Virus record (IMG/VR): IMGVR_UViG_3300032323_000263
Coordinates: 1-31,637 of that record
DNA: 31,637 nucleotides
Direction: 5' to 3' (one strand)
Origin: a virus
Both the position numbers and the translations under genes were made by a program. The notes under the pieces are model-generated. The model was not told where the DNA came from. It saw only the letters and a program-made list of their open reading frames with translations, and did not search any database. Shown here one piece after another: positions 3,462 through 26,142 of the stretch (position 1 is the first letter of the stretch; the number at the start of each line of letters is the position of its first letter).

Positions 3462-4085
3462 ATGGCATATACACGTGGTAGCAGCAACAATATTATTGTT
3501 GGAGCAGCAGCCCTCTTCACACATGAAGACGGCGTACTCACAGACGCAGCCCTTCCAGCATACGTAGCAGGAACATCATTCAGAGAGACACTTTCTGGCG
3601 ATGCAGACTTCCGCAATGTTGGTTACACAATGAACGGTTTGGAAATTCAATTCCAGCCTGACTTTGGTGAGGTTGCAGTAGATCAGGTTCTTGACGTTGC
3701 TAAGTTGTTTAAGCAAGGCATGCAGGTAAACCTAAATACTACATTCGCAGAATCAACACTAGAGAACCTTCTATTTGCTCTCGCAGGCAAGGATGGAGAT
3801 CTAAACACAGTATCAGGAAACCCAACACTTAACCTTTCAGCAGGAGACATCGGCGAATGCCCAGTCGAACGTGGTTTGGTTGCAGTTGGTCCAGGAACTG
3901 GAGATTGTGCAATTGGAGACGAACTCGAAAGAGTTTACGTAGCATACCGTGCACTCTCAATCGAGAGCGTAACAGTATCTGCAAAGAGAGATGAAGCGAC
4001 AATGTTCGAAGTATCATTCCGTCTTCTTCCAAATGATAATGCATCATACGGTAAGATCGTAGACCGCACTATCCCAGCAGCATAA
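3462..4085 (+). CDS. Major tail protein (tail tube subunit)
   Basis: I choose the ATG at 3462 (MAYTRGSSNN...) rather than the in-frame GTG at 3453, because the GAGGTG at 3450-3455 is ideally placed for 3462. The product is 207 residues. A beta-rich tube fold is suggested by segments such as YTMNGLEIQFQPDFGEVAVD, then LFKQGMQVNLNTTFAESTLE, and a C-terminal AYRALSIESVTVSAKRDEAT. These match the HK97/lambda-gpV-type tube proteins of actinobacterial siphophages. It has its own promoter and is followed by a strong terminator, so it is a monocistronic, highly expressed unit. Codon use is again C-ending and resembles the capsid gene, not its tail neighbours. Confidence 0.85.
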   Translation: MAYTRGSSNNIIVGAAALFTHEDGVLTDAALPAYVAGTSFRETLSGDADFRNVGYTMNGLEIQFQPDFGEVAVDQVLDVAKLFKQGMQVNLNTTFAESTLENLLFALAGKDGDLNTVSGNPTLNLSAGDIGECPVERGLVAVGPGTGDCAIGDELERVYVAYRALSIESVTVSAKRDEATMFEVSFRLLPNDNASYGKIVDRTIPAA

Positions 4086-4106: not shown

Positions 4107-4135
4107 AGACCCAGACCGTAAAAAAGTCTGGGTCT
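4107..4135 (+). terminator. Rho-independent terminator after major tail gene
   Basis: AGACCCAGAC (4107-4116) pairs perfectly over 10 bases with GTCTGGGTCT (4126-4135). The loop is CGTAAAAAA, and TTCTGTT follows. This is the cleanest hairpin in the window and would limit read-through from the abundant tube transcript into the chaperone genes. Confidence 0.8.
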
Positions 4136-4138
4136 TTC

Positions 4139-4147
4139 TGTTATACT
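4139..4147 (+). promoter_or_regulatory. Extended -10 promoter giving a leaderless mRNA
   Basis: TG plus T is followed by TATACT (4142-4147), an extended -10. Counting the usual seven bases from the end of the hexamer puts +1 at 4154, exactly the A of the ATG of the long chaperone gene. There is no Shine-Dalgarno between, so a leaderless transcript is predicted. Confidence 0.6.
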
Positions 4148-4153
4148 ATATAT

Positions 4154-4837
4154 ATGGCAACAACTGTATATAATACAAAAAATATTACCCTACAAGACGG
4201 AGTAGAAATAGAGTTATCGCCACTAAAAATAAAATATCTTAGACAACTAATGGATATTTTTGATGAAGTGAGAAACGCTACAGGAGACCTTGAGGCTATT
4301 ATTGCGTTGTCAAAATGTGCAAGGATCTGTATGAAACAGTTTAGACCAGAGATCACAGAAAGCCAAGACATGCTAGAAGAGTATGTTGACCTGCAAAACA
4401 TTTATGACATATTAGATATAACTGCTGGAATTAAGATTAATGAAAAATCAGAAGAGACTGTTAAGAAGCAAGCAGTTGATAGTGGGTCCTCTTGGGAAGA
4501 TCTAGATCTTGCAAAACTAGAGTCTGAAGTATTTTTGCTGGGAATTTGGAAAGACTACGATGAACTAGAACGGTCCATATCTATGCCAGAGTTAATGGTA
4601 ACACTTTCTATTAGGAGAGAACTAAACTACGATGAAAAGAAATTCCTTGCAGCAATGCAGGGGGTCGACCTAGACAAGAATAATGAAAAAAGCAATGCCT
4701 GGGAAGAAATGAAAGCCAGGGTATTTAGTGGTGGTCAAGCGTCTAATTCAAAAGACATCGTTGCACTACAAGGATACAATGCACAAAAGGCTGGATTCGG
4801 AATCGGCATGGGATTAGACTATGAAAGAATAGACTAA
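4154..4837 (+). CDS. Tail assembly chaperone, long form (G-T type in one frame)
   Basis: The 227-residue protein has two parts. Residues about 10-105 (LQDGVEIELSPLKIKYLRQL through DILDITAGIKI) form a G-like domain that is clearly paralogous to the next gene. Residues about 115-227 (LGIWKDYDELERSISMPELM, then KKFLAAMQGVDLDKNNEKSN and a GFGIGMGLDYERID tail) correspond to the T extension usually reached by programmed frameshift in siphophages. Here the whole G-T protein is read without a frameshift. Tail chaperones bind the tape measure during tube assembly and are absent from the virion. The ATG has no Shine-Dalgarno and appears to be leaderless. Confidence 0.75.
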   Translation: MATTVYNTKNITLQDGVEIELSPLKIKYLRQLMDIFDEVRNATGDLEAIIALSKCARICMKQFRPEITESQDMLEEYVDLQNIYDILDITAGIKINEKSEETVKKQAVDSGSSWEDLDLAKLESEVFLLGIWKDYDELERSISMPELMVTLSIRRELNYDEKKFLAAMQGVDLDKNNEKSNAWEEMKARVFSGGQASNSKDIVALQGYNAQKAGFGIGMGLDYERID

Positions 4838-4853
4838 AAACAAGCCTGTTTAT

Positions 4854-4861
4854 GGTATAAT
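4854..4861 (+). promoter_or_regulatory. Extended -10 promoter before the short chaperone
   Basis: TGGTATAAT occupies 4853-4861: TG at 4853-4854, G at 4855 and a perfect TATAAT at 4856-4861. The predicted start is near 4868, which gives a leader of about 18 nt containing GGAGGA (4876-4881) for the ATG at 4886. No good -35 is visible. Confidence 0.6.
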
Positions 4862-4885
4862 TAAACAACTACAATGGAGGAAATC

Positions 4886-5209
4886 ATGGTTAAAGAAGCA
4901 GAAAGCAAGAATCAACTGTCGCTTATTGATGGAACAAAGTTTGAGATTAAGCCACTAAAAATCTCTCTACTTAAGCCATTTATGGAGCAGTTTACAAAAC
5001 TTCAAGAGGTAGCAGAAGATAACACCAAGTCAATGGATATTTTAATTGACTGTGTTCAAATTGCATTTAAACAATACTTGCCTGCAATTGCAGACAACAG
5101 AGAGGCGATTGAGGAAAATCTAGATCTTCCTACAGTCTACAAGATCATTGATGCTGCTTCAGGAATGCAACTTTCCGATGCAACAGGTCTTCTAAACTCA
5201 ATCAAGTAA
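4886..5209 (+). CDS. Tail assembly chaperone, short paralogue (G-like)
   Basis: The better start is the ATG at 4886 (MVKEAESKNQ...), because GGAGGA at 4876-4881 is a good ribosome site 4 bases upstream and overlaps the alternative in-frame ATG at 4874. The product is 107 residues. It aligns along its length with residues 10-105 of the preceding chaperone: shared features are the DG followed by IxPLKI pair of strands, the FKQYLP/MKQFRP segment, and the ENLDLPTVYKIIDAASGMQL end versus a matching end there. It lacks the T extension. It probably acts as the free G-type chaperone that coats the tape measure. It precedes the tape measure gene by 13 bases. Confidence 0.75.
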   Translation: MVKEAESKNQLSLIDGTKFEIKPLKISLLKPFMEQFTKLQEVAEDNTKSMDILIDCVQIAFKQYLPAIADNREAIEENLDLPTVYKIIDAASGMQLSDATGLLNSIK

Positions 5210-5222: not shown

Positions 5223-8200
5223 TTGTCTGACGTAAATGCAAATATAGGTATTAATTTTGATACCTCTAACGCACTAGCACAGTTACGTCAGTTACAGGCT
5301 GGACTCAGCCGATTCAACCAATCCCTAACTCAGGGAAATGTTGCAGCAATGAATGCACAAAAGGCATTAAACTCCCAGTTGATGCAGGCAATAAATGCCA
5401 CTGGGAAGTTTGTTGCAACACAAAAAGATGTAGCCACAAGTACATCTTCTTTTACGCAGGCACTTGAAAAAAATCAAATGTCCATGCGACAGTACTTTAG
5501 GTACACAGCAGCAGCAGCCACACAAAATACCAAGGTGTTTAAGGGGATGTTTGCACAAGAGCGTGAGACTTTAACCCGTGCTAGTAAAGATAGGGTAAAA
5601 CTTCTACAGGCTCAGTATATCCAGATGCAGTCTGCTAATGGAGATATGATTAAGACTCTTCAGGTTATTCCAAAGCACCTAAAGATGGTCAACGGTCAGT
5701 ATGCAGATTATGCAACACGCATGCAGATGGCAGCACAAAGACAGCAATTCTTAAATAAACTATTAAGCCAGGGATCAACCCAACTACTGAACTTTGGTAA
5801 GAACACTCAGTGGGCTGGTCGTCAGTTGATGGTTGGTTTAACAATACCTCTCACGATCTTGGGTTCAACAGCAGCAAAAACATTCATGGAAATGGAACAG
5901 GCTGTAATCAAGTTCACAAGAGTTTACGGTGATATGCTCACAGATGGGGCTGCAACCGACAAGGCAATTGCAGATATCCAAAGACTTGGAAGAGAGTATA
6001 CAAAGTACGGAATTGCAGTAAAAGATACTGTTGAAATGGCAGCCTCTGCAGCAGCAATGGGTCTTACTGGAGATGCTCTTAATGCTCAAGTAATTAATGC
6101 AACAAGGCTTGCAGTACTTGGTCAAGTGGAACAAGCACAAGCGCTAGAAACAACAATCTCTTTGACAAATGCTTTTGGTCTTGCAGCGGATCAACTTGCA
6201 GGAAAGATCAACTATCTTAACGCAGTAGAAAACCAAACAGTTCTTTCGATTGAAGATTTGACTATTGCAATTCCAAAGGCTGGACCAGTTGTAAAGCAAC
6301 TTGGTGGATCTGTAGAAGATCTTGCATTCTTTATGACTGCAATGAAGGAAGGTGGAATTAACGCATCAGAAGGTGCTAACGCACTTAAGTCTGGTCTTGC
6401 TTCCATGATTAATCCTTCTAAGAAGGCTGCCGAGTTCCTTAATGATTTAGGTATTAACATCAAGGGAATTGTAGAAGCAAACGCTGGAGACCTCAAGGGT
6501 ACTGTTGTTGGATTCGCTAGAGCACTTGATACACTTGATCCTCTTAACCGTGCCCGTGCAATTGAGCAGATGTTTGGTAAGTTCCAGTTTGCTCGTCTAT
6601 CAACATTGTTCCAAAACGTAACAAGTGATGCATCTCAGGCTTCAAGAGCACTCGGATTAGCGGGGGCATCAGTAGAAGAACTTGCAATCCTATCTGAGCG
6701 AGAATTAAAGAAGGTAGAAGACGCAACAGGAACAAAGTTTAAGAAGTCAATGGAAGACCTTAAGCAACAGTTAATCCCAATAGGCAAAGCATTCTTGCAG
6801 GCAGCAACACCAATTGTTGAATTTGTTGGAAAGGTTTTAGCAAAGTTTAATAATCTTTCAGAAGGAACTAAGAAGGTTATAGCGATTATTGTTGGTGTTG
6901 TTGGTGGCCTTGCCCCTATTGCTTTGATGACATTCGGTATTTTGATGAATGGTGTAGCAAACACAATTAAACTATTTGCTAAACTACGTGGCGGAGTTGC
7001 ACAACTAAATGGATCAAACAATGTTCTTGGTGGAGGATTTGAGTATTTAACTAATCAGCAGATTGAAAACCTTGCACAATCTAATGCCCTGCATACATCT
7101 CATAGCCAACTAATTTCTACATTTAATGTTGAAGCAGCGTCAGTTCAAGCATTGGCAGCAGCATATGGAAATGCAGCAAGTCAGGCAAGAGCACTTGCTC
7201 AATCATCTCCAGGATTGTTTAACACAGTCCCAGGACCAGCAGGAGCAGTTTCGGGTCTTCCTCCAAAGAAGTTTGCACAGGGCGGAGTAGTTCCAGGAAC
7301 AGGTAATAAAGATACTGTTCCAGCAATGCTCACTCCAGGAGAAGTTGTTTTAACTAAGCAAACTGTAAAAGAAAATCCAGAACTAGTTGCTGCACTTCAA
7401 AATGGATCTGTAAAAAAGTACAACGATGGAACTGGAAGAATTGTTACTCCTGACCAAAGAAGATTCATTAGTCAGGTGAGTAGTCGTTCAGCAGATGCAG
7501 CAGGTGTTGCAGATGAAATTGGTAAGCAGTTTGAGTTTATAAATAATACTACTGCAGAAAAACTTATGGCATACGCAAGGGCAACTGGTAGAACAGTAAC
7601 TGATAGCAGCGAAGAAAGTTTGGAGCAGTTAAGAGCATCTTTAGTTACTAGCGTAAAGAATGTAATTGAGGCAGCAGCAGATGCTGCAGAAGCAAGAGGA
7701 AGAGAATTAACTGTTACTGCAGCAGCAAACGCCCCCAAGAAGGTAGGAACTGCAGGGGCACAAGCCAGCCTTCATCAATTCTATAACCCTAGAGCAAAGC
7801 AACAAGAGAGCCAGCAGTTTTCCCATGTAGAAACATCTACCTCAATGCCGCTTGATCAGTTATCTAGAACTGTAGTCATAACAAATGAAAAAACTCAATC
7901 AGAACTTTTAAATCTTCAAAGAGCAATTCAGGCAAGTAATGAGGCAAATGGCACATCTGTTCCAATGCCAACTGTAACACCAGTCAGTGGATTTGGATAT
8001 GAACTTCAAGGTCAAGTAAATAAGGCCATGAATGATGAATCCCCAGAGATTAGAAACTTTAAGGGTCAAGGTCGAACTGTTGCAACAATTGATGCCTTCT
8101 TGGAAAACTTTGAAGAAACTGGTGTTCAGAAATGGCAAAAAGCAATTGAAATTGGCGGAGGAAATTTTGAACAATTATCTGGAGCATTAAGGGTATACGA

Positions 8201-11200
8201 TGATAGACTTTTGCAAGCAGTTAGACAATGGAAGCAAGACAATCCAGGGCAAGCGTTTACTGACACAGTCTTTAAAGGCATAGAGCAAACTGTTCGCTCT
8301 CAAGTTGCTGGACTAGATACTGAACTTGGTCAGGTTTTTGAAGTAGCAAGACAAACAGTTACTGCAGTAAGAGTAAGCATGACAGCAGAACAAAAAGCAA
8401 TTGCTAATGCAGACGCCATTTCCAGAGGGGAAACAAACTCTAAGGGCGAAGCCTACACAGAACAAAAACCAAAATACAGTAAGAGCCGATCAACATTTCA
8501 AGGAGGGGGAACAGAAAGAAGAGACGAGGGCGGAGTAGGTAATTTTATAGAAGTAGACGAAGCAGCACTTGCAGATGCTAGAGCAGAAGGAGCCCAACTA
8601 GGCCAAGCAGTAATTGATGGAGTTAGAAGCGATCCAGGAACCGCAGCAGACTCACCATCAAGAAAGGGTATTAAAGCAGGTAAAGAAGTTGCAGACGGTT
8701 TGATAATTGGAATGCAAGAAGGACAGCCTGCAGTCGATGCACAATCTGCAAAACTTGGTAGCGCTGCTGTTCCAACAGCAGCAGAAACACAGGCAAAAGT
8801 CGACAAGATGGATCTTGGAAACAAGGCCTTCTATGACGAACTTGATACACCAGAATTGCGAGATGAAAGACAGATCTACAAGTCTGTAGATAGACAAAGA
8901 AAGAAACGTGCCAAAGAACGGGGAGCAGGAAATGCTGCAGAAACATCGCTAACACCAGTTCCTTCTCAAGCATCAGTGCGAATTACTGCAGCAACAGCCA
9001 AAACCGAAGCAGCAGCAGAGCAGTTAGCGGTAAGTACAGAGCAAGCAGCAACAGCACAGGCACAGGTTGTTCAACAAATCAGGGATGAAAGTAAATCCAG
9101 AGTTACCATTAAGGGTAATACTGTTAACATTGGTAAGGCTCGTGAAGATGCAGACAAGGCTGAAAATGAAGCAGCAATTACTAGAGCCCGTGCAGCAGCA
9201 ATTGAAAAAGAGCAAGCAGCACAAAGAGCAAAGAACTCTCCAACAACCATTACTGACGAACAGGTTCTTGCTGCTAAAGAAAAAGCCAATGCTGCAGAAT
9301 TAAAGGCTGCTGAAACTAGAGCAGCACTTGCAATGGCTGAAGCAGAAGGTAAAGAAATTGTTATTTCTGATGAAGATGTAAAAGACCCAGGTAAAGTCAA
9401 AAAGATTCAAGAAAAAAATGATGAAGTTATTTCTAATGGAACACAAGAACAAGGTGACGGACTAAGGAGAATTGTCGAGGGTACAGACGAAGCAGCAGAT
9501 TCAACATTATCAGTTGCAGACCAGACAGATGAACTTGCAAACATAACTGGAGAAGCGGTAGATGCTCAAACACAAACTGCAGGAAACCTTGTAACTGGAG
9601 CACAGATAACAAATGCTACTACTGGAAACATGAACGATGTTCTTCAGTCAACGGATATGACTGGCATAGCGCAAGATGATATTGCAGGTTCTTCAGAAAG
9701 CATTGCTAAAATAAATAGAGACATTGAAGAAGATAAGCGTAAAATAAGAGCATTAGGACAACAAGAACTTGCTGCACGAATGAAAGATTCAGGTGCAATT
9801 ATTCCTGATGGATCGCAGTCAACTAATGCAGTTTTTGATGAAAGCAAAGCCCCAAGTTACACAGAAGCATATGATGAAGTAATGGGTAGAGATCCAGGAA
9901 CCAATGGTCCAGATGACCCAGGACAAACTGGATATACAAGAAATAAAAAGGGACAGTTCGTATTTGATCCAGAAACAGGACAGCCAACAACTCTTACTGA
10001 AAGCCAACTAAAGAAAAAGAAGCGTGGCATGCGTAGAGAGAAGGTTGGAAGGGCTTCTGGAAAGATCTCAGGTGGTCTTGGAACAGCAGCAATGGTTGCT
10101 GGTATGGCAGGAGCGCCACCACAAGTAACTGCAGCACTAGGTACTGCAGCAACGGTTGCACAGTTTGCGCCAATGATTGCTGGTATGGGTCCAATAGGTA
10201 TTGCAGTAACAGCCATCGCAGCACTTGGTGCAGGAGCATTTTTACTTAATAAACACTTTAATCAGATGGCTGCAAAGGCAGCCCAGTTTGCGAAAGACTT
10301 ATCTGCAACACGAGATGGCCTTAAGGCTATAGGTGAAGTTAGTGGTAAGGTTGGCGCATCTGAAATAATGGATAAGCGCAGACAGACTAGCCAGTATGGT
10401 AAATACGATGAAGAAATTAAAATTGATAACACCTTTGGTGAAAAGTTCTTAGGATCAGAGGTTGGTAAAAAAGAAAAGAAATTGTTCCAAGAAAATGTTA
10501 AAAAGTTTGGAAGCGACAAAGCAGTTAAGGACTTATCTCTAAAACTTGCTACAGCAGTTGCTGATGGAGTACTTGATGCCCAGGCAGCAAATAGTATCGC
10601 TGCAGAACTTGCATTACAGTTAGAAGATCAAAAACTTGAAATGCAGGTTGTTGGACAACTATCAACAATCATTGGTCCAAACGGAGAAAACTTAAAAGAT
10701 AAGCCAATTGAGACTAGAGCATTAATTTTAGCAAATGCCAACAACAGAGTTATAGATGCAGAGTCAGACATTGCACAAGGCAAGGGCAACACAAGAGAAA
10801 ACGTTGCATCAGTGGCAGCCTACAATATGAATAATATTGAAATGGCTACAATGATGGCAGATCAAATACAGGTTGAGTATGAAACTCAAAAGAAAAAACT
10901 TGAAGCAGAACTAGCCTCTACAACTAACGCACAAAGAAAATTAGATATTGGAAAACAGATTGCACAACTTGATTCTGAAAACCTATCAAACTCAAGACTA
11001 ATGAATGCTCAACTTCTTACACAGATTCAACTTCAGACAAAGAGTTTTGAAAAGGTTTATAGTGCTTCTAGATTTGGAGCCCAATCAAGAAGAGAAGATG
11101 CTTACTTTGACGCAACAAGAACTCAACTTGAAACAACATACAAGGGAACTGATCAAGAAGAAGCAGCAAAGAAATTCTTAAATACATCAGAAGACTTTGC

Positions 11201-14200
11201 AGACAATGCTTTTACTAATGGCCTAGCAGATCAAAAAACTGCACAAACCTTCCAAGCAAAAATGGAAATGCTTGTTGGAAGCAAGGTGCTAAGTCCAACT
11301 GAAGCAAACAACTACATTGAACTATTTTCTGGCCAACTAGACAAGTTTGATATACTTTTTGATGCAAGCGTTCAGTTCCACGGAACAGCAAAAACAAAAG
11401 AACTTTTAAATATGTTCTCTGGATACACAGACAAGAAAAAAGCAACAGAGATGGTTACACAGATTGCATTAACAAAAACGGACCCAGCACAGTTTGATGC
11501 AATCATGGAAGCACTAAAAGGTATACAGGCACTCGATGGGGTAACTATCGATATGGAAATTTTGCTTACTAGTCTTGGGCTAGAAGGTTTAGAAGTTGTT
11601 AAAAAGCAAATGGAAGATATTGAAAAAATAAAAGAAGAGGCAGCCAAGAGAGGCGACAAGAGTATGAATCTTGATGCTGTTGGAGAACTTGGACCAACGC
11701 AGCAAGCACTAGTTGACGAATTAAAGCAAAATGAAACACGAATGGGAGAGTTTAATAAACTCAACCTAGAGCAGCAAGCAGAGTACTTGCAAAAACTTCA
11801 AACACAATACGCTTATGAATCAATGCTCACAGAAACAGAAAAAACATTGCAGGCAGAAAAGTTTGCAAGACAGCAAGCAATGATGCAGCAAGCAGCAGGA
11901 CTTATAGCAATTGGTGTAGAAGCGTTTGATGCTGCAGTGGAAGGATTTAAGGCAGACTACTTAGCAATGACTCCACAAGAAGCAGCAATAGCAAAATTAA
12001 AACCGATATATGCATCTGGTGTAACTTCCCTAGGAGCAAAAGATGTTCCAGCAGCAGCAGACGGAGGTAAAAAAGATGATCCTCTTGATTTCTTAGACTC
12101 ACTTGCTATGCGTATTAAGATGACTAGAGATCAAGCATTTAATGCAAAGAAGCCAATTGAGTCTATGCTTGCAGCATTTTATAGCCCTGCTGCAAAGAAA
12201 AATGTTGCAAACATGTTTAAGTTGTTTGACGGTGTCCAGCAAAAACTTATTGCTTTAAAGGTTCCAGAAGAGTTTAGAGATTATATTGCTGGCCTAGATG
12301 CAGAGCAGTTCGATGAATTAATGAAGGCTGACCTTAATAGAAAGAAAAAGGGGCAGCAAGGCATCTTTACATATGGTGCAAAGAAAGATAAAAGCGGAAA
12401 GGTTATTAAAGACAAGAAGGGCAATGTTGTCTATGATAAGTCAAGAATTGTTGGAATTTCCGAAGAAGGTAAGGCTATCGTTGCAGCATACAACGAAGCA
12501 CCTCTTGATAAATTTAATATCGCACAGCAAAAGATAATCGTTGACTCTGACAACCAGTTTAAAGCATTTAATAAGTTAAAGGCTCAAGGAGTAGAAACAG
12601 GTCTTGCGCTTGAAACATTATCTGACCCAATCCTTGCTGCAGCGATTGCTTCAAAGCAATTAGAGGGTACTGATTTAAAGAAGTTTATTGATGACTTAAA
12701 GAAGTCAGCAGATGCAACAGAAAAGGCTGCAGTAATGGCAGACCTGTTAAAAAAGAATGCTGACTTTGAGTTTAGATCAAAGGCTGTTCCTAAGTTAGCA
12801 GCAGCACTTAAAGAAACTGGAATGTCTGTTGCAGATATTCAAACAGTTCTTTCAGATCCAGCCCTAGCAAAGCAGTTAATAAAAGATCTAGAAGACGGAA
12901 AGATAGATTCAAAGGCTATTGCTGACTATCTTAATAGTATAAAAGATGAAAAAATTGTTGAGATACGTGGCAAGTTTAATGCTGGAGACTTTGCTGCAGC
13001 AGCAGCACCAGGTATGGAACTTGTCAACAAGATGTTCTCAGTACAAGAACAACTAATTAGAACAGGTGTTGATGGTAGATCTACAGAGATGGTTAGAAGA
13101 CTTAAAGATCTTAAGACAACTAATGAAAAACTTCAAATAGACATTCAAAAGATTACATTTGACTTTATTCGTCCACTTGAAAAGGCAATTGAAAAAGCAC
13201 AAAGAGATATTGAAATAAACATTACTAGAAAAATTGAAGATTACCAAGAGCAAGTTAGTGATCTTCAAAGAATTATTGAGATTGCATTTGAAAGACCAAT
13301 CGCAGCCATTAATGCAGAAAATACAATTCTGTCTAACGACATGGAGATAATGAATAAGGCTGCAGAAGAAATCAATAAGCGTTATGACGAGCAGGCAGAA
13401 GCCCTATCTAAGGTTGCAGAAATTAATGCACAAATTGTTGAACAAGAAAAGGAACAACTTGATTTAGCAGATGCATTATCTAAGGGTGATATTGCAGCAG
13501 CAGCAAGAGCAGTACAGTCTATAAGGGCGTCGCAGGCTGCAAGAAATGCAGAGAATGCATCAAAGGCTTTAGAGCAATCACGTAAAAATGAAGTTGATAG
13601 TCTCAGAGGCCGTGACTCAGGTTTAAGTCAAGAGCAGATAACTGAAAGACAGTATGTGAATGCACAGGCTATATACGATTTAGAAAATAGAGCAACAACA
13701 GAGGTTAATGGAAAACTTCTTACAAGGCTTCAAATACTAGACGACATACAGAAAAAATCTGATGAAATTTATAACCTTGAAGAAAAAAGAGAGGCTGCAC
13801 AACTTCTTATTCGCAATAATGAAGACAAGATTTACGACATAAGAGAAAAGCAGATAAAGCCTCTAGAAGAACAACTTGAAATTAACAACATGCAGATTGC
13901 ACTAGACGAGTATAACCTTGAAAGACTTGTTGCTGGTATAACTGTTTTAGGAAGAACCAAAGACACTTGGGATGGGATTGCAGCAAAGATTGAGGCTTCA
14001 TCTCTTGCGGGTCAAGATTTTGACAGACTGATGGGATCAATGCTTGCTTCAGTTGATAAGATTGAACAGGGATGGTCTAAGACACTAGAAACTTTATCCA
14101 AGTATTCATCTGCTTCCGCTGCAGGTCCAGGAACGGAAATGGACAAACTAAGAAAGTCAATGCTTGAAGAGTTAGCCCTTAATGAAAAGATTGCATCAGA

Positions 14201-15767
14201 AAAAGCAGCACAAGCAAAGGCAGCACAAGAAGCAGCACAAAAAGAATATGAAATTAAAAAGGCTGCATACGATGCTGAGATGGCACAAATTAAAAAACTA
14301 AGAAGCATGGGGCTTTCAAGTTTTATTACAGATGCAATGCAATCTGCTCTGAAAGCACCAGTTGCTCCAACCTTTGGTCCAAACTCAGCAGCAGACAATC
14401 CTAACGTTTCTTACAATGATCTAACACAGAATGCTGCAAATGATATTTATAATACTGGAAAATTTAGTGGGCCAACAACTAGCAACGCTGGTGGAGGTTC
14501 AGGAAGCACAACAACAGTTCCAAGCCCTGGACAAACAAGCGGAGGCTCATCAAGTGGAGGTTCTTCGGGTGGAGGCTCGTCAAGTGGAAGTTCTTCGGGT
14601 GGAGGTTCTGGAAGCAGCGCCCCAGTTCAAGTTCCAGGTGCTGCATCAGTATTTAGTATGAAGCCGCTACCACAAAAAGGCACTGTAGCATCTAACGCTA
14701 TTTATAGATTATCAGAAAAAGGCTTTAAAGAAAATTATCAAAAAGCAGTAGATAAGACTTTTGAACTACGCAGAGCAATAGAAGAAAAGTATGACGGAAT
14801 ATTGCGTGGTGATTTAAGCGTTAGCAGTTATGCGACAACAGAAGAAAAACAAAAAATATACATGGATGCTGGATCTAAAATTACTAAAGCAAGCGACAAG
14901 CAGCCATACCTAGCAGATATTAAAAAACTTCAAGAACTAGAAGCAGAAATGGACAAGTATTTAACTGTTACCACAAAGAATGGTTATACAAGCATACTAG
15001 TTGATAATGAAAAATCACAACAAGCAAATATTTTCAAAGCAGCAGCAAAAAAGCAAATACCAAAAGATGTTCTTTCTGTGTTAGAAATTCTAAGTCAACT
15101 AAATAGCACTCACAGCGCAGATCAGACAAAACTAAAATCAGTGCTTGACGCATACAAGACTGTAAAAAGTAATAACTTATACTCAGAAGCAATGTATCCA
15201 GTAAGCACATGGGATCCAAATAGCATTAAGACTCAAGACCCAGTAGCATACAAAAACATTCTTCCTTCTTATGAAGAATATAAAAAACACACAGAGGCTA
15301 TGCTGGCTAAATCAAATCAAGCAGCAAGAGCCAGATCTCTTATAAGAAGTGCAGGATACTCAAGTAAAGACTTTGATTGGTACTTTCCAGAAGGTAAAAA
15401 CTACCTTGAAAGCACTGGACCCAACAACAGGTATAACAAAGATAATAACTATCCTACTTGGAAGGGCTATGCAACAGGAGGTCTTGTATCTGCTAAGTTT
15501 GCACAAAAGAGATTTAACATGGGTACAGACACAGTCCCAGCAATGCTTACTCCTGGAGAGTTCGTAATGAATAAGTTTGCCGTACAGACCCACGGTATAG
15601 GAAAGATGCAGGCTATGAATAGTGGCTCATCAGTAGGCGACTCAGTGTATAATTATAGTATTAGCGTAAATGTTAAGTCTGAGTCAAACCCAGATGAAAT
15701 TGCAAGAACCGTCATGGCTCAGATAAAGAGTATTGACGCACAAAAGATTAGAGGAGTTAGATCATAA
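5223..15767 (+). CDS. Giant tape measure protein, 3514 residues
   Basis: The protein sets tail length as an extended molecule inside the tube and is later ejected to help DNA entry. Regions seen: an N-terminal helical part (1-190); a TP901-type core at about 195-465 (repeated AAS/AAMGLTGDAL, LGGSVEDLAFFMTAMKEGGI, FGKFQFARLSTLF); a hydrophobic stretch at 552-577; a first DTVPAMLTPGE motif at about 682-712; an SPSRKG...GLIIGM motif near 1140-1165; Ala/Glu-rich helices at about 1250-1450; a second hydrophobic stretch at about 1617-1680; long predicted coiled coils at about 2620-2905; a Gly/Ser linker at about 3088-3135; an unrecognised domain; and a second DTVPAMLTPGEFV motif at about 3430-3450. 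It starts at TTG. I see no convincing peptidase or lysozyme motif. Confidence 0.92.
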   Translation: MSDVNANIGINFDTSNALAQLRQLQAGLSRFNQSLTQGNVAAMNAQKALNSQLMQAINATGKFVATQKDVATSTSSFTQALEKNQMSMRQYFRYTAAAATQNTKVFKGMFAQERETLTRASKDRVKLLQAQYIQMQSANGDMIKTLQVIPKHLKMVNGQYADYATRMQMAAQRQQFLNKLLSQGSTQLLNFGKNTQWAGRQLMVGLTIPLTILGSTAAKTFMEMEQAVIKFTRVYGDMLTDGAATDKAIADIQRLGREYTKYGIAVKDTVEMAASAAAMGLTGDALNAQVINATRLAVLGQVEQAQALETTISLTNAFGLAADQLAGKINYLNAVENQTVLSIEDLTIAIPKAGPVVKQLGGSVEDLAFFMTAMKEGGINASEGANALKSGLASMINPSKKAAEFLNDLGINIKGIVEANAGDLKGTVVGFARALDTLDPLNRARAIEQMFGKFQFARLSTLFQNVTSDASQASRALGLAGASVEELAILSERELKKVEDATGTKFKKSMEDLKQQLIPIGKAFLQAATPIVEFVGKVLAKFNNLSEGTKKVIAIIVGVVGGLAPIALMTFGILMNGVANTIKLFAKLRGGVAQLNGSNNVLGGGFEYLTNQQIENLAQSNALHTSHSQLISTFNVEAASVQALAAAYGNAASQARALAQSSPGLFNTVPGPAGAVSGLPPKKFAQGGVVPGTGNKDTVPAMLTPGEVVLTKQTVKENPELVAALQNGSVKKYNDGTGRIVTPDQRRFISQVSSRSADAAGVADEIGKQFEFINNTTAEKLMAYARATGRTVTDSSEESLEQLRASLVTSVKNVIEAAADAAEARGRELTVTAAANAPKKVGTAGAQASLHQFYNPRAKQQESQQFSHVETSTSMPLDQLSRTVVITNEKTQSELLNLQRAIQASNEANGTSVPMPTVTPVSGFGYELQGQVNKAMNDESPEIRNFKGQGRTVATIDAFLENFEETGVQKWQKAIEIGGGNFEQLSGALRVYDDRLLQAVRQWKQDNPGQAFTDTVFKGIEQTVRSQVAGLDTELGQVFEVARQTVTAVRVSMTAEQKAIANADAISRGETNSKGEAYTEQKPKYSKSRSTFQGGGTERRDEGGVGNFIEVDEAALADARAEGAQLGQAVIDGVRSDPGTAADSPSRKGIKAGKEVADGLIIGMQEGQPAVDAQSAKLGSAAVPTAAETQAKVDKMDLGNKAFYDELDTPELRDERQIYKSVDRQRKKRAKERGAGNAAETSLTPVPSQASVRITAATAKTEAAAEQLAVSTEQAATAQAQVVQQIRDESKSRVTIKGNTVNIGKAREDADKAENEAAITRARAAAIEKEQAAQRAKNSPTTITDEQVLAAKEKANAAELKAAETRAALAMAEAEGKEIVISDEDVKDPGKVKKIQEKNDEVISNGTQEQGDGLRRIVEGTDEAADSTLSVADQTDELANITGEAVDAQTQTAGNLVTGAQITNATTGNMNDVLQSTDMTGIAQDDIAGSSESIAKINRDIEEDKRKIRALGQQELAARMKDSGAIIPDGSQSTNAVFDESKAPSYTEAYDEVMGRDPGTNGPDDPGQTGYTRNKKGQFVFDPETGQPTTLTESQLKKKKRGMRREKVGRASGKISGGLGTAAMVAGMAGAPPQVTAALGTAATVAQFAPMIAGMGPIGIAVTAIAALGAGAFLLNKHFNQMAAKAAQFAKDLSATRDGLKAIGEVSGKVGASEIMDKRRQTSQYGKYDEEIKIDNTFGEKFLGSEVGKKEKKLFQENVKKFGSDKAVKDLSLKLATAVADGVLDAQAANSIAAELALQLEDQKLEMQVVGQLSTIIGPNGENLKDKPIETRALILANANNRVIDAESDIAQGKGNTRENVASVAAYNMNNIEMATMMADQIQVEYETQKKKLEAELASTTNAQRKLDIGKQIAQLDSENLSNSRLMNAQLLTQIQLQTKSFEKVYSASRFGAQSRREDAYFDATRTQLETTYKGTDQEEAAKKFLNTSEDFADNAFTNGLADQKTAQTFQAKMEMLVGSKVLSPTEANNYIELFSGQLDKFDILFDASVQFHGTAKTKELLNMFSGYTDKKKATEMVTQIALTKTDPAQFDAIMEALKGIQALDGVTIDMEILLTSLGLEGLEVVKKQMEDIEKIKEEAAKRGDKSMNLDAVGELGPTQQALVDELKQNETRMGEFNKLNLEQQAEYLQKLQTQYAYESMLTETEKTLQAEKFARQQAMMQQAAGLIAIGVEAFDAAVEGFKADYLAMTPQEAAIAKLKPIYASGVTSLGAKDVPAAADGGKKDDPLDFLDSLAMRIKMTRDQAFNAKKPIESMLAAFYSPAAKKNVANMFKLFDGVQQKLIALKVPEEFRDYIAGLDAEQFDELMKADLNRKKKGQQGIFTYGAKKDKSGKVIKDKKGNVVYDKSRIVGISEEGKAIVAAYNEAPLDKFNIAQQKIIVDSDNQFKAFNKLKAQGVETGLALETLSDPILAAAIASKQLEGTDLKKFIDDLKKSADATEKAAVMADLLKKNADFEFRSKAVPKLAAALKETGMSVADIQTVLSDPALAKQLIKDLEDGKIDSKAIADYLNSIKDEKIVEIRGKFNAGDFAAAAAPGMELVNKMFSVQEQLIRTGVDGRSTEMVRRLKDLKTTNEKLQIDIQKITFDFIRPLEKAIEKAQRDIEINITRKIEDYQEQVSDLQRIIEIAFERPIAAINAENTILSNDMEIMNKAAEEINKRYDEQAEALSKVAEINAQIVEQEKEQLDLADALSKGDIAAAARAVQSIRASQAARNAENASKALEQSRKNEVDSLRGRDSGLSQEQITERQYVNAQAIYDLENRATTEVNGKLLTRLQILDDIQKKSDEIYNLEEKREAAQLLIRNNEDKIYDIREKQIKPLEEQLEINNMQIALDEYNLERLVAGITVLGRTKDTWDGIAAKIEASSLAGQDFDRLMGSMLASVDKIEQGWSKTLETLSKYSSASAAGPGTEMDKLRKSMLEELALNEKIASEKAAQAKAAQEAAQKEYEIKKAAYDAEMAQIKKLRSMGLSSFITDAMQSALKAPVAPTFGPNSAADNPNVSYNDLTQNAANDIYNTGKFSGPTTSNAGGGSGSTTTVPSPGQTSGGSSSGGSSGGGSSSGSSSGGGSGSSAPVQVPGAASVFSMKPLPQKGTVASNAIYRLSEKGFKENYQKAVDKTFELRRAIEEKYDGILRGDLSVSSYATTEEKQKIYMDAGSKITKASDKQPYLADIKKLQELEAEMDKYLTVTTKNGYTSILVDNEKSQQANIFKAAAKKQIPKDVLSVLEILSQLNSTHSADQTKLKSVLDAYKTVKSNNLYSEAMYPVSTWDPNSIKTQDPVAYKNILPSYEEYKKHTEAMLAKSNQAARARSLIRSAGYSSKDFDWYFPEGKNYLESTGPNNRYNKDNNYPTWKGYATGGLVSAKFAQKRFNMGTDTVPAMLTPGEFVMNKFAVQTHGIGKMQAMNSGSSVGDSVYNYSISVNVKSESNPDEIARTVMAQIKSIDAQKIRGVRS
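14541..14611 (+). repeat. 30-bp tandem repeat encoding a Gly/Ser linker
   Basis: Two 30-base units (14541-14570 and 14571-14600) differ at only two positions, and a partial third unit follows to about 14611. Each encodes ten Gly/Ser residues in the tape measure frame. The unit keeps the frame, so copy number can change by slippage without breaking the gene. Confidence 0.85.
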
Positions 15768-22426: not shown

Positions 22427-22902
22427 TGGCAGATCAGGGAATAAAAAAGGCAACAGTCTTAAAAGAAGATCTACCCGCTTTTAATGCAAATGACTTAGGA
22501 TATTTTGTTAGATATAGAGTTATATCAAGCGATAAAAACAGGACTTCTCATTGGTCTCCATACTATTTTTTAATAACTGGAACTATACAAAAGGTTTCCT
22601 GCTCTGTAGAGTTTATTCAAGTTCAGCCCGATTTAAATGTTATAAGCATGGTTTGGCAACATCCCAAACTTTCTTCAAATCTAGAAAGCAACGAGATATC
22701 AATTTTTAAGGAGTATGACATTTATATAAAAACAGATACCCGTGATTGGTATTATCTTGCAAGTTCTTCTTCTACGCAGTTTTCAACTCTGGCCCCAGAA
22801 GGAATGCTGTCTTTCCAGGTTGCAGTGCAAGTGCCCACCTACCCAAAGGTTTATTCTCCAGATGCTGCAATCTTTACTTTAGCAGAGCCTTTAGTGGTAT
22901 AA
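22426..22902 (+). CDS. Small tail protein with fibronectin type III-like fold (GTG start)
   Basis: The start is GTG overlapping the previous TAG as TAGTG, giving 158 residues. From about residue 60 on, the pattern of strands (VISMVWQHP..., EYDIYIKTDTRDWYYLASSS, STQFSTLAPEG, FQVAVQVPTYPKVYS) is typical of a fibronectin type III domain, common in tail proteins for surface adhesion. The stop codon TAA (22900-22902) lies inside a perfect TATAAT, so the promoter for the next gene overlaps this coding end. The FN3 call is by pattern, not alignment. Confidence 0.55.
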   Translation: MADQGIKKATVLKEDLPAFNANDLGYFVRYRVISSDKNRTSHWSPYYFLITGTIQKVSCSVEFIQVQPDLNVISMVWQHPKLSSNLESNEISIFKEYDIYIKTDTRDWYYLASSSSTQFSTLAPEGMLSFQVAVQVPTYPKVYSPDAAIFTLAEPLVV

Positions 22903-22903
22903 T
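22895..22903 (+). promoter_or_regulatory. Extended -10 promoter overlapping a stop codon
   Basis: TGGTATAAT is a perfect extended -10, with TATAAT at 22898-22903. Predicted +1 falls at 22910-22913, and the next ATG is at 22913 with no Shine-Dalgarno, so the transcript would have a leader of zero to three bases. A TTTACT at 22873-22878 is a poor, over-distant -35 candidate. Confidence 0.6.
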
Positions 22904-22912
22904 TGATATACT

Positions 22913-23356
22913 ATGTCAAAGATACCATTACCTGAGCGTGGACAGCCACTAGATGTAACCTACATCTATGAAATGGCACAAGCAATTAATGATTTATCCA
23001 AAGAGGTTTCTCCAGCCACATATGACTACGTAACTGTTCAAACAGCAGACAATGGTCCACAAAATAGAAAAATGTCAGAAGTTAGAATGATTGGTGGATT
23101 AGTTAAGGTTGCAAGCAGCAGATCTGTACTTGCTGGAGATCAACTGCCATTCTCTGTTTCTTTTACTGGAGAGTTTAGATTCCCACCAATCGTTACTGCA
23201 ACCCCAGTTAACGTAGGACAAACTCCTGCTGGTGCAAATGTTACACTTATTTTAAATGATCCATCGACATCTTCTGTAAATGGATTTGTTAAGTTTAATA
23301 CCTCTGGTCTGGTTTCAGTTAATGTTAACTTGATGATCATTGGAATACCAAACTAA
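22913..23356 (+). CDS. Small tail-tip protein, possibly receptor-binding
   Basis: The 147-residue protein has a short helical N-terminus (PLDVTYIYEMAQAINDLSKE) that could trimerise, followed by a beta-rich C-terminus (FRFPPIVTATPVNVGQTPAG...GFVKFNTSGLVSVNVNLMII). This layout, a short helix then a beta sandwich with a final hydrophobic strand, resembles small H-type-lectin-like tail proteins, but I cannot name a family firmly. No Shine-Dalgarno precedes the ATG; a promoter places the transcription start within three bases of it, so it is probably a leaderless gene. It is the last structural-looking gene before the DNA-binding and replication genes. Confidence 0.5.
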   Translation: MSKIPLPERGQPLDVTYIYEMAQAINDLSKEVSPATYDYVTVQTADNGPQNRKMSEVRMIGGLVKVASSRSVLAGDQLPFSVSFTGEFRFPPIVTATPVNVGQTPAGANVTLILNDPSTSSVNGFVKFNTSGLVSVNVNLMIIGIPN

Positions 23357-25777: not shown

Positions 25778-25783
25778 TATAAT
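25778..25783 (+). promoter_or_regulatory. -10 box giving a leaderless mRNA
   Basis: A perfect TATAAT sits one base after the helicase stop codon. The next ATG begins at 25789, six bases after the hexamer, so the expected start of transcription (25789-25790) coincides with the start codon. There is no room for a Shine-Dalgarno on that transcript. Confidence 0.6.
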
Positions 25784-25788
25784 ATGGT

Positions 25789-26142
25789 ATGTCTAAAAGT
25801 AAGGAAAATATTCCTCCTACCTTCTATCATCATAAGCCTATCAAAAAGTTTTACCTTGATGGGGTTATACATGATGAGTCAGCCCTTGGCAGACTTAAGG
25901 CAGAATACGTTAGACTACTTGAATCAGAAATGCGACTATCAGGCTACGTACCAAGGCTTGACATATTGCCAGACTTTACACTAGACTATAACCACAAGAA
26001 AAAATATTTTGAATTTCAACTAACAGTACACGGAACATATACGGGGAGAAAACAAAGCGAATGGATAGCAGGAATAGACGGAAGCACACCAATCTATACA
26101 CAAAAGAACAAATCAAAAGAGTTCTCACAGGAACAGGTGTAA
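25789..26142 (+). CDS. Unknown protein between helicase and primase
   Basis: The 117-residue product begins MSKSKENIPPTFYHHKPIKK and is mixed alpha/beta with a central helix (ALGRLKAEYVRLLESEMRLS) and strands (HKKKYFEFQLTVHGTYTGRK). I do not recognise a family with confidence, though the position next to the primase suggests a replication role. The start seems leaderless. The last 82 bases are shared with the primase gene in a different frame, so its C-terminal tail (roughly from residue 91) is constrained by two readings. Confidence 0.55.
   Translation: MSKSKENIPPTFYHHKPIKKFYLDGVIHDESALGRLKAEYVRLLESEMRLSGYVPRLDILPDFTLDYNHKKKYFEFQLTVHGTYTGRKQSEWIAGIDGSTPIYTQKNKSKEFSQEQV

Follow-up and report, generated by a model that had tools for sequence, protein, structure and literature searches.

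How are the short and long tail assembly chaperones of a phage supplied when both parts of the long form are encoded in one continuous frame? Lambda-type phages make G and G-T by −1 programmed frameshifting (Xu, Hendrix and Duda; reviewed in PMC5009743), and in lambda itself G is in ~30-fold excess over G-T, the G part binding the tape measure protein and T binding the major tail protein (PMC5009743). This frameshift is a widely conserved recoding event, and the reason for its persistence is unclear. The question is raised by a locus in a linear stretch of metagenomic viral DNA of 31.6 kb and 38% GC (IMG/VR record IMGVR_UViG_3300032323_000263, positions 1 to 31,637), which is referred to below as the window. 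Here, a fused G-T gene is followed by a second G gene, and it is likely that the two together have replaced the ancestral −1 programmed frameshift, with the second gene providing the short form in an inferred excess.

A Fused Chaperone Gene Followed by a Second G Gene

All features of the locus lie on the plus strand. The major tail protein gene (3462–4085; PHROG 2175, Ig-domain type) aligns with annotated Streptomyces phage major tail proteins and has a conserved GAGGT Shine-Dalgarno sequence at its start (3462). Between it and the fused gene a terminator-like hairpin, AGACCCAGAC/GTCTGGGTCT followed by TTCTGTT (4107–4135), could be read from the sequence. The long chaperone gene (G-T, TAC-NC; 4154–4837) encodes 227 residues in a single frame and consists of a G-like domain (G1, 4154–4447), a linker with the consensus KSEExVKxQAxxSGS (4448–4480), which joins G and T in frame at the position where relatives carry a slippery heptamer and a change of frame, and a T-like domain (4481–4834), which can be aligned with the T that Streptomyces phages encode in the −1 frame. 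The short paralogue (G2, TAC-N; 4886–5209) is 107 residues long and precedes the tape measure gene (5223–15767; TTG start as called; PHROG 10030, E 7e-91). Both chaperone genes are found between the major tail protein and tape measure genes, which is the expected position for chaperones. The tape measure protein itself, at 3514 residues, predicts a very long tail.

Two start choices of ORF callers were not retained. ATG 4874, which would give a short protein of 111 residues, overlaps the Shine-Dalgarno sequence, and ATG 4886 is the likely start. For the long gene, upstream in-frame starts (237 or 244 residues) are the callers' choice in many relatives; these would fall within the terminator region and are also contradicted by the conserved protein start M-A-T, located at 4154 in the window.

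The G parts of the two proteins are clearly homologous. G1 and G2 share 31% identity over 94 residues (BLASTP, E 7e-16), and profile-profile comparison with hhalign gave a probability of 99.9% (E 8e-34, 97 columns), the homology of the short protein spanning the first ~97 residues of the long one. PHROG 10504 matches the G part of both, and PHROG 10474 matches the long protein only, at residues 131–189 in the T part. The pair consequently fits the pattern of tail assembly chaperones, in which the long form consists of G, as in the short form, plus a T domain. Searches with tblastn revealed homology to genes annotated as tail assembly chaperone in Streptomyces and Rhodococcus phages. AlphaFold2 models of the long protein (pLDDT 75) and G2 (pLDDT 77) show the same order of elements in G1 and G2. 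A Foldseek search of BFVD with the long model returned a chaperone of an uncultured phage (E 2e-4), as well as Kitkat (probability 0.93) and the GT protein of N15 (probability 0.96, E 0.014). Foldseek and sequence searches of the PDB, including the solved chaperones HK97 gp13 (2OB9) and YqbN (3KLU), produced no significant match, and sequence searches of Pfam and the PDB produced only weak, unrelated ones. The long and short genes are thus G-T and G-like tail assembly chaperones with homologous G parts. The first-pass annotation had placed the G-like and T-like parts in one continuous frame and had described a second gene, with its own promoter and Shine-Dalgarno sequence, encoding only a G-like paralogue; both claims hold, with the start of the second gene corrected from 4874 to 4886.

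Loss of the Slippery Site

At the G/T junction of named frameshift relatives the sequence is CCCAAAT, CCCGGAA or GGGAAAA. The homologous stretch in the window reads AAT GAA AAA TCA, after which T continues in frame through the linker, and no slippery heptamer (X_XXY_YYZ) was found in the window linker. A canonical X_XXY_YYZ heptamer lies within the G/T overlap of 138 of the 146 frameshift loci, and CCCGGAA takes its place in the other 8, such that a candidate (CCCAAAC/T/A, GGGAAAA/C, AAATTTR or CCCGGAA) is present in 146 of 146. Heptamer counts were compared with those expected when codons were shuffled within each gene, using non-redundant sets of 58 frameshift loci and 91 fused linkers. Frameshift relatives are enriched (52 heptamers versus 21.6 ± 4.2 expected in 58 genes), whereas fused linkers are at chance (19 versus 16.8 ± 3.5 in 91 genes).

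Two peculiarities were observed among the frameshift phages. The Boydwoodruffvirinae Streptomyces phages (L003, L087, L088, L091 and kin) carry CCCGGAA, rather than a canonical heptamer, at the conserved place, and in several of them a −1 frame stop just upstream pins the shift there. A further frameshift phage has two tandem major tail protein genes (L156:5001-6339) and an AAATTTA heptamer at its G/T junction.

Fusion and the Second G Gene Occur Together

Relatives were gathered by similarity to the long gene, to the second G and to the G of a frameshift sister phage. Most were supplied by a separate collection blind to the chaperones, made with the major tail and tape measure proteins. All loci were searched with G, T and major tail protein profiles. 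The resulting 359 distinct loci include 197 fused ones that extend as far as the tape measure gene and have a second G, a further 12 fused ones with a second G whose sequence is cut off later, and 4 fused ones that stop short of the tape measure gene and show no second G in the available part; the other 146 are frameshift loci, none of which has a second G. The chaperone-blind subset (251 distinct loci) gave the same picture, with 113 fused loci with a second G reaching the tape measure gene, 4 with a second G and cut later, 3 cut before the tape measure gene and lacking a second G, and 131 frameshift loci. Neither a frameshift locus with a second G nor a complete fused locus without one was found among the 359. 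Where the region is complete, the second G gene is therefore present if and only if G and T are fused. In the window, as in each of the 213 distinct fused loci, G-T forms one continuous frame, and T does not lie in the −1 frame of G.

In one locus (L389) the second G is split into two overlapping pieces. Another has an insert of ~1.2 kb between the fused gene and an intact second G downstream (L053:5682-6921); it contains two ORFs, one of which resembles, by eye, a 2-oxoglutarate/iron oxygenase.

As named relatives, tblastn finds 127 Streptomyces and 5 Rhodococcus phages. Those examined in detail encode T as a separate ORF in the −1 frame of G and lack a second G. The closest of them (Stanwilliamsviridae Streptomyces phages and the Rhodococcus phages Trina and Francesca) use the lambda-type frameshift with homologous proteins. 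All fused loci are on metagenomic contigs, and a scan of genome contigs for hosts or prophages found none. The lineage is large and made up mostly of uncultured tailed phages, for which an actinobacterial host is inferred from the nearest named relatives.

The Two Genes Have Different Start Regions

A −10 box, TATACT (4142–4147), ends 6 nt before the ATG of the long gene (4154), and no Shine-Dalgarno sequence precedes this gene in the window or in any of 212 distinct fused loci. A −10 ending exactly 6 nt before the long-gene ATG was found in 163 of the 212 (82 of 91 in a smaller set), with one ending 5–9 nt before it in 37 more; the exact pattern occurs at any ATG of these loci with a background frequency of 0.0076. 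The short gene is preceded by an extended −10, TGG-TATAAT (4856–4861), and by a GGAGG Shine-Dalgarno sequence (4876–4880), 5 nt before ATG 4886. Across fused loci, the second G has a Shine-Dalgarno sequence in 90 of 91 and a −10 mostly 24–30 nt before its start. Since the single G of frameshift phages also has a Shine-Dalgarno sequence (143 of 146), it is the second G, and not the long gene, that has retained the ancestral type of start. Across relatives, the anatomy of both starts is conserved far beyond chance. A generic −35/−10 scan misses both promoters of the window because they have no −35, and the promoter evidence for both genes is comparative.

The position of the −10 and the missing Shine-Dalgarno sequence fit a leaderless long gene, as the first-pass annotation had proposed. 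The proposal holds by anatomy and by its conservation in relatives, and remains an inference in the absence of transcript data. In some actinobacteria leaderless mRNAs can be translated well. Consequently, a leaderless start need not be a weak one, and the influence of transcription and mRNA stability may be as large as that of initiation. In all 91 fused loci, and in 57 of 58 frameshift loci, a terminator-like element precedes the long gene or G. Between the long gene and the second G, a terminator-like hairpin is rare (just 4 of 91 fused loci), and long-gene transcripts can therefore run on into the second G.

Codon Bias and Selection

The codon adaptation index was computed with the major tail proteins of the group as reference. 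Median values in fused loci are 0.633 for G2 and 0.550 for the N terminus of the tape measure protein, with T (0.468) and G1 (0.449) lower, and G2 exceeds G1 in 83 of 83 loci. The sister frameshift phages have values of 0.620 for G and 0.464 for T, with G above T in 11 of 11. The codon usage of G2 is thus that of an abundant G, and G1, as part of the long gene, scores about the same as T. This suggests high expression of G2 and low expression of both halves of G-T, from which the protein ratio is inferred. G1, T and G2 all have dN/dS values of 0.066–0.080, showing purifying selection on all three parts.

History of the Two-gene Arrangement

A tree of 134 loci was built from four markers (1171 columns) that include neither the chaperones nor the major tail protein, and in it the fused phages form one clade (0.995). 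The sister of this clade is a frameshift group, L239 and kin (1.0), with further frameshift phages outside. G1 forms one clade (100/99) and G2 another (96/97), also when 19 near frameshift phages are added. The single fused clade, the single G1 and G2 clades and the linker consensus common to the fused loci together favour one switch from frameshift to two genes. Because the sister phages still frameshift with one G, frameshifting is most likely the ancestral state, a conclusion that is well supported.

The origin of the second G is less certain. The G tree joins G2 to the G of the L239-type sister group (100/96), leaving G1 outside, and G2 is 48% identical to that single G as compared with 35% for G1. 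A tree with G1 and G2 as one clade is not rejected (p-AU 0.189). Mean identity is 52.7% for G1 and 65.7% for G2, indicating that G1 evolves faster. G was likely duplicated in place, but it cannot be ruled out that the second copy came from a relative.

The major tail protein tree was dropped as a phage phylogeny, as it conflicts with the four-marker tree by nesting the frameshift sister group inside the fused clade. A more widely sampled tape measure tree also breaks the fused clade, with frameshift loci L423, L481 and L489 adjoining fused loci L207, L236 and L497. At that sampling the T tree gives no resolution (support 0.0). The major tail and tape measure conflicts are read here as recombination, although reversal is not strictly excluded. 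Judging by the N termini of the tape measure proteins in these six loci, phages with either chaperone system seem able to exchange tape measures.

A Model for Chaperone Supply without Frameshifting

Collectively, these data make it likely that −1 programmed frameshifting, the ancestral mechanism, gave way to a fused G-T gene and a downstream G2. What has been shown is that the two G parts are homologous, that G and T are fused, that the slippery site is lost and that fusion and second G strictly co-occur, together with the anatomy of the start regions, the codon bias and the purifying selection; the protein ratio, the roles in assembly and the step that sets the ratio are inferred. In this model, a short linker would have brought G and T into one frame, leaving the long gene to make G-T only, and the free-standing G2 just downstream would supply the short form. 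The long gene would be read from a leaderless promoter directly behind the terminator. The short gene would be read from its own extended −10 promoter, with a strong Shine-Dalgarno sequence, and could also be read from the upstream promoter. With its own promoter, Shine-Dalgarno sequence and read-through, G2 would be expected in excess over G-T, an inference for which there is no protein or RNA measurement. By analogy with lambda, G2 and the G part of G-T may coat the tape measure protein, with the T part recruiting the major tail protein.

The ratio would most likely be controlled by the difference between a leaderless start for G-T and a promoter plus Shine-Dalgarno sequence for G2. The first-pass annotation had claimed that gene duplication and different initiation strength set the G to G-T ratio. 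The claim is supported insofar as the ratio can be inferred; whether initiation or transcription is the main lever has not been shown, and the duplication is likely rather than certain. It would have been refuted by a functional slippery site in the long gene or by a lack of homology between the G-like parts, and neither was found (heptamers are absent from the window linker and at chance level in the clade). A bolder reading is that recoding was exchanged for a second gene in one ancient event, and that the short-to-long ratio, which the ribosome fixes in relatives, is now set by leaderless versus Shine-Dalgarno starts; the balance of evidence falls a little short of this. Were it true, the ratio would depend on the state of the host translation machinery and would be tunable by promoter changes.

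Several alternatives to the likely two-gene replacement can be considered. The long gene might still frameshift in the manner of dnaX, a −1 slip in the linker giving free G and the second G being accessory. In the window, slippage at about the GAA AAA codons would indeed run into a stop within a few residues, and the 19 of 91 fused linkers that have a heptamer are mostly A-rich, e.g. A AAA AAG. However, these heptamers are at the codon-shuffle expectation, their place is not conserved and the window linker has none; slippage inside the fused gene was rejected by this test and is very unlikely. Equally improbable is that G2 is a paralogue with a new job and that G-T alone serves tail assembly. 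In its favour, G2 of the window lacks the MATTVY N terminus common to G1 and the single-copy G proteins. Against it, the single G of the sister frameshift phages is closer to G2 than to G1 both by identity and in trees, and G2 has the codon bias of that G, retains its Shine-Dalgarno sequence and occurs in every complete fused locus.

It remains possible that the second G was acquired by recombination from an L239-type relative and was not duplicated within the lineage, which would lead to the same working state. The grouping of G2 with the L239-type G apart from G1 supports such a takeover, as does the recombination of modules in this phage group, but a G1+G2 clade is not rejected and the faster evolution of G1 can displace it in the tree. 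Finally, every fused locus comes from metagenomic contigs, and fusion and second gene could both be assembly or sequencing artefacts. This can be all but excluded by the breadth of the set, with 197 distinct complete loci and purifying selection on all three parts.

Comparison with Other Chaperone Systems

The two-gene replacement favoured here retains much of the lambda-type G/G-T system, including the position between the major tail and tape measure genes, the G domain, the G+T form and the need for both forms. It differs in that the window has no slippery site, T is in the frame of G, a second G lies downstream and the long gene is leaderless, the last by inference. For T4-like phages, two genes and not a frameshift have been proposed as the source of the short and long chaperones (Vladimirov, Gautam and Davidson 2022, Virology 566:9-15; cited by PMC10274946 and PMC12846349). 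In genes 26 and 51, which we take to be the two T4-like chaperone genes, the products are detectably alike (gp26 versus gp51, E 2e-6). Separate genes for short and long forms with homologous N-terminal parts are thus common to both systems, a likeness of arrangement only. T4-like phages have contractile tails and genes 26 and 51 are on opposite strands, whereas the genes here are in tandem and the sister group still frameshifts. An excess of short over long chaperone can here only be inferred, from codon bias and start anatomy.

The Microbacterium EA phages have been described as partly without an evident frameshift (PMC7302621), as is the chaperone locus here. Their two ORFs are presented as a pair resembling G and T, and the section of PMC7302621 bearing on them has no fused G-T with an extra G. 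TP901-1 is no longer infectious when G and T are permanently fused and free G is missing, although its particles look complete (PMC4493119). G and T are permanently fused in that laboratory mutant as in the window, but it has no extra G; the second G here would rescue that state. The non-infectivity of the TP901-1 fusion lacking free G would explain why, among complete loci, fusion is not found without a second G. The open-access literature searched contained no report of a lineage with a fused G-T, a second G and a frameshifting sister group. Two-gene chaperones have already been proposed for T4-like phages; what appears to be new is the tandem fused G-T/G2 arrangement beside a frameshifting sister group.

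With the frameshift lost here and kept in sister phages, and homologous proteins on both sides, these phages offer a natural test of the purpose of the frameshift. Selection seems to keep an excess of the short form over the long, which two genes with different start regions can meet. A fused G-T, a second G, an apparently leaderless long gene and low codon adaptation of the long gene provide a signature for frameshift-free chaperone loci, which annotation expecting a slippery site would miss.

Two further genes of the window may also be leaderless. The genes at 22913–23356 (unknown) and 25789–26142 (PHROG 17515) each have a TATAAT-like −10 ~5–9 nt before the ATG (22895–22913 and 25778–25789, respectively) and no Shine-Dalgarno sequence.
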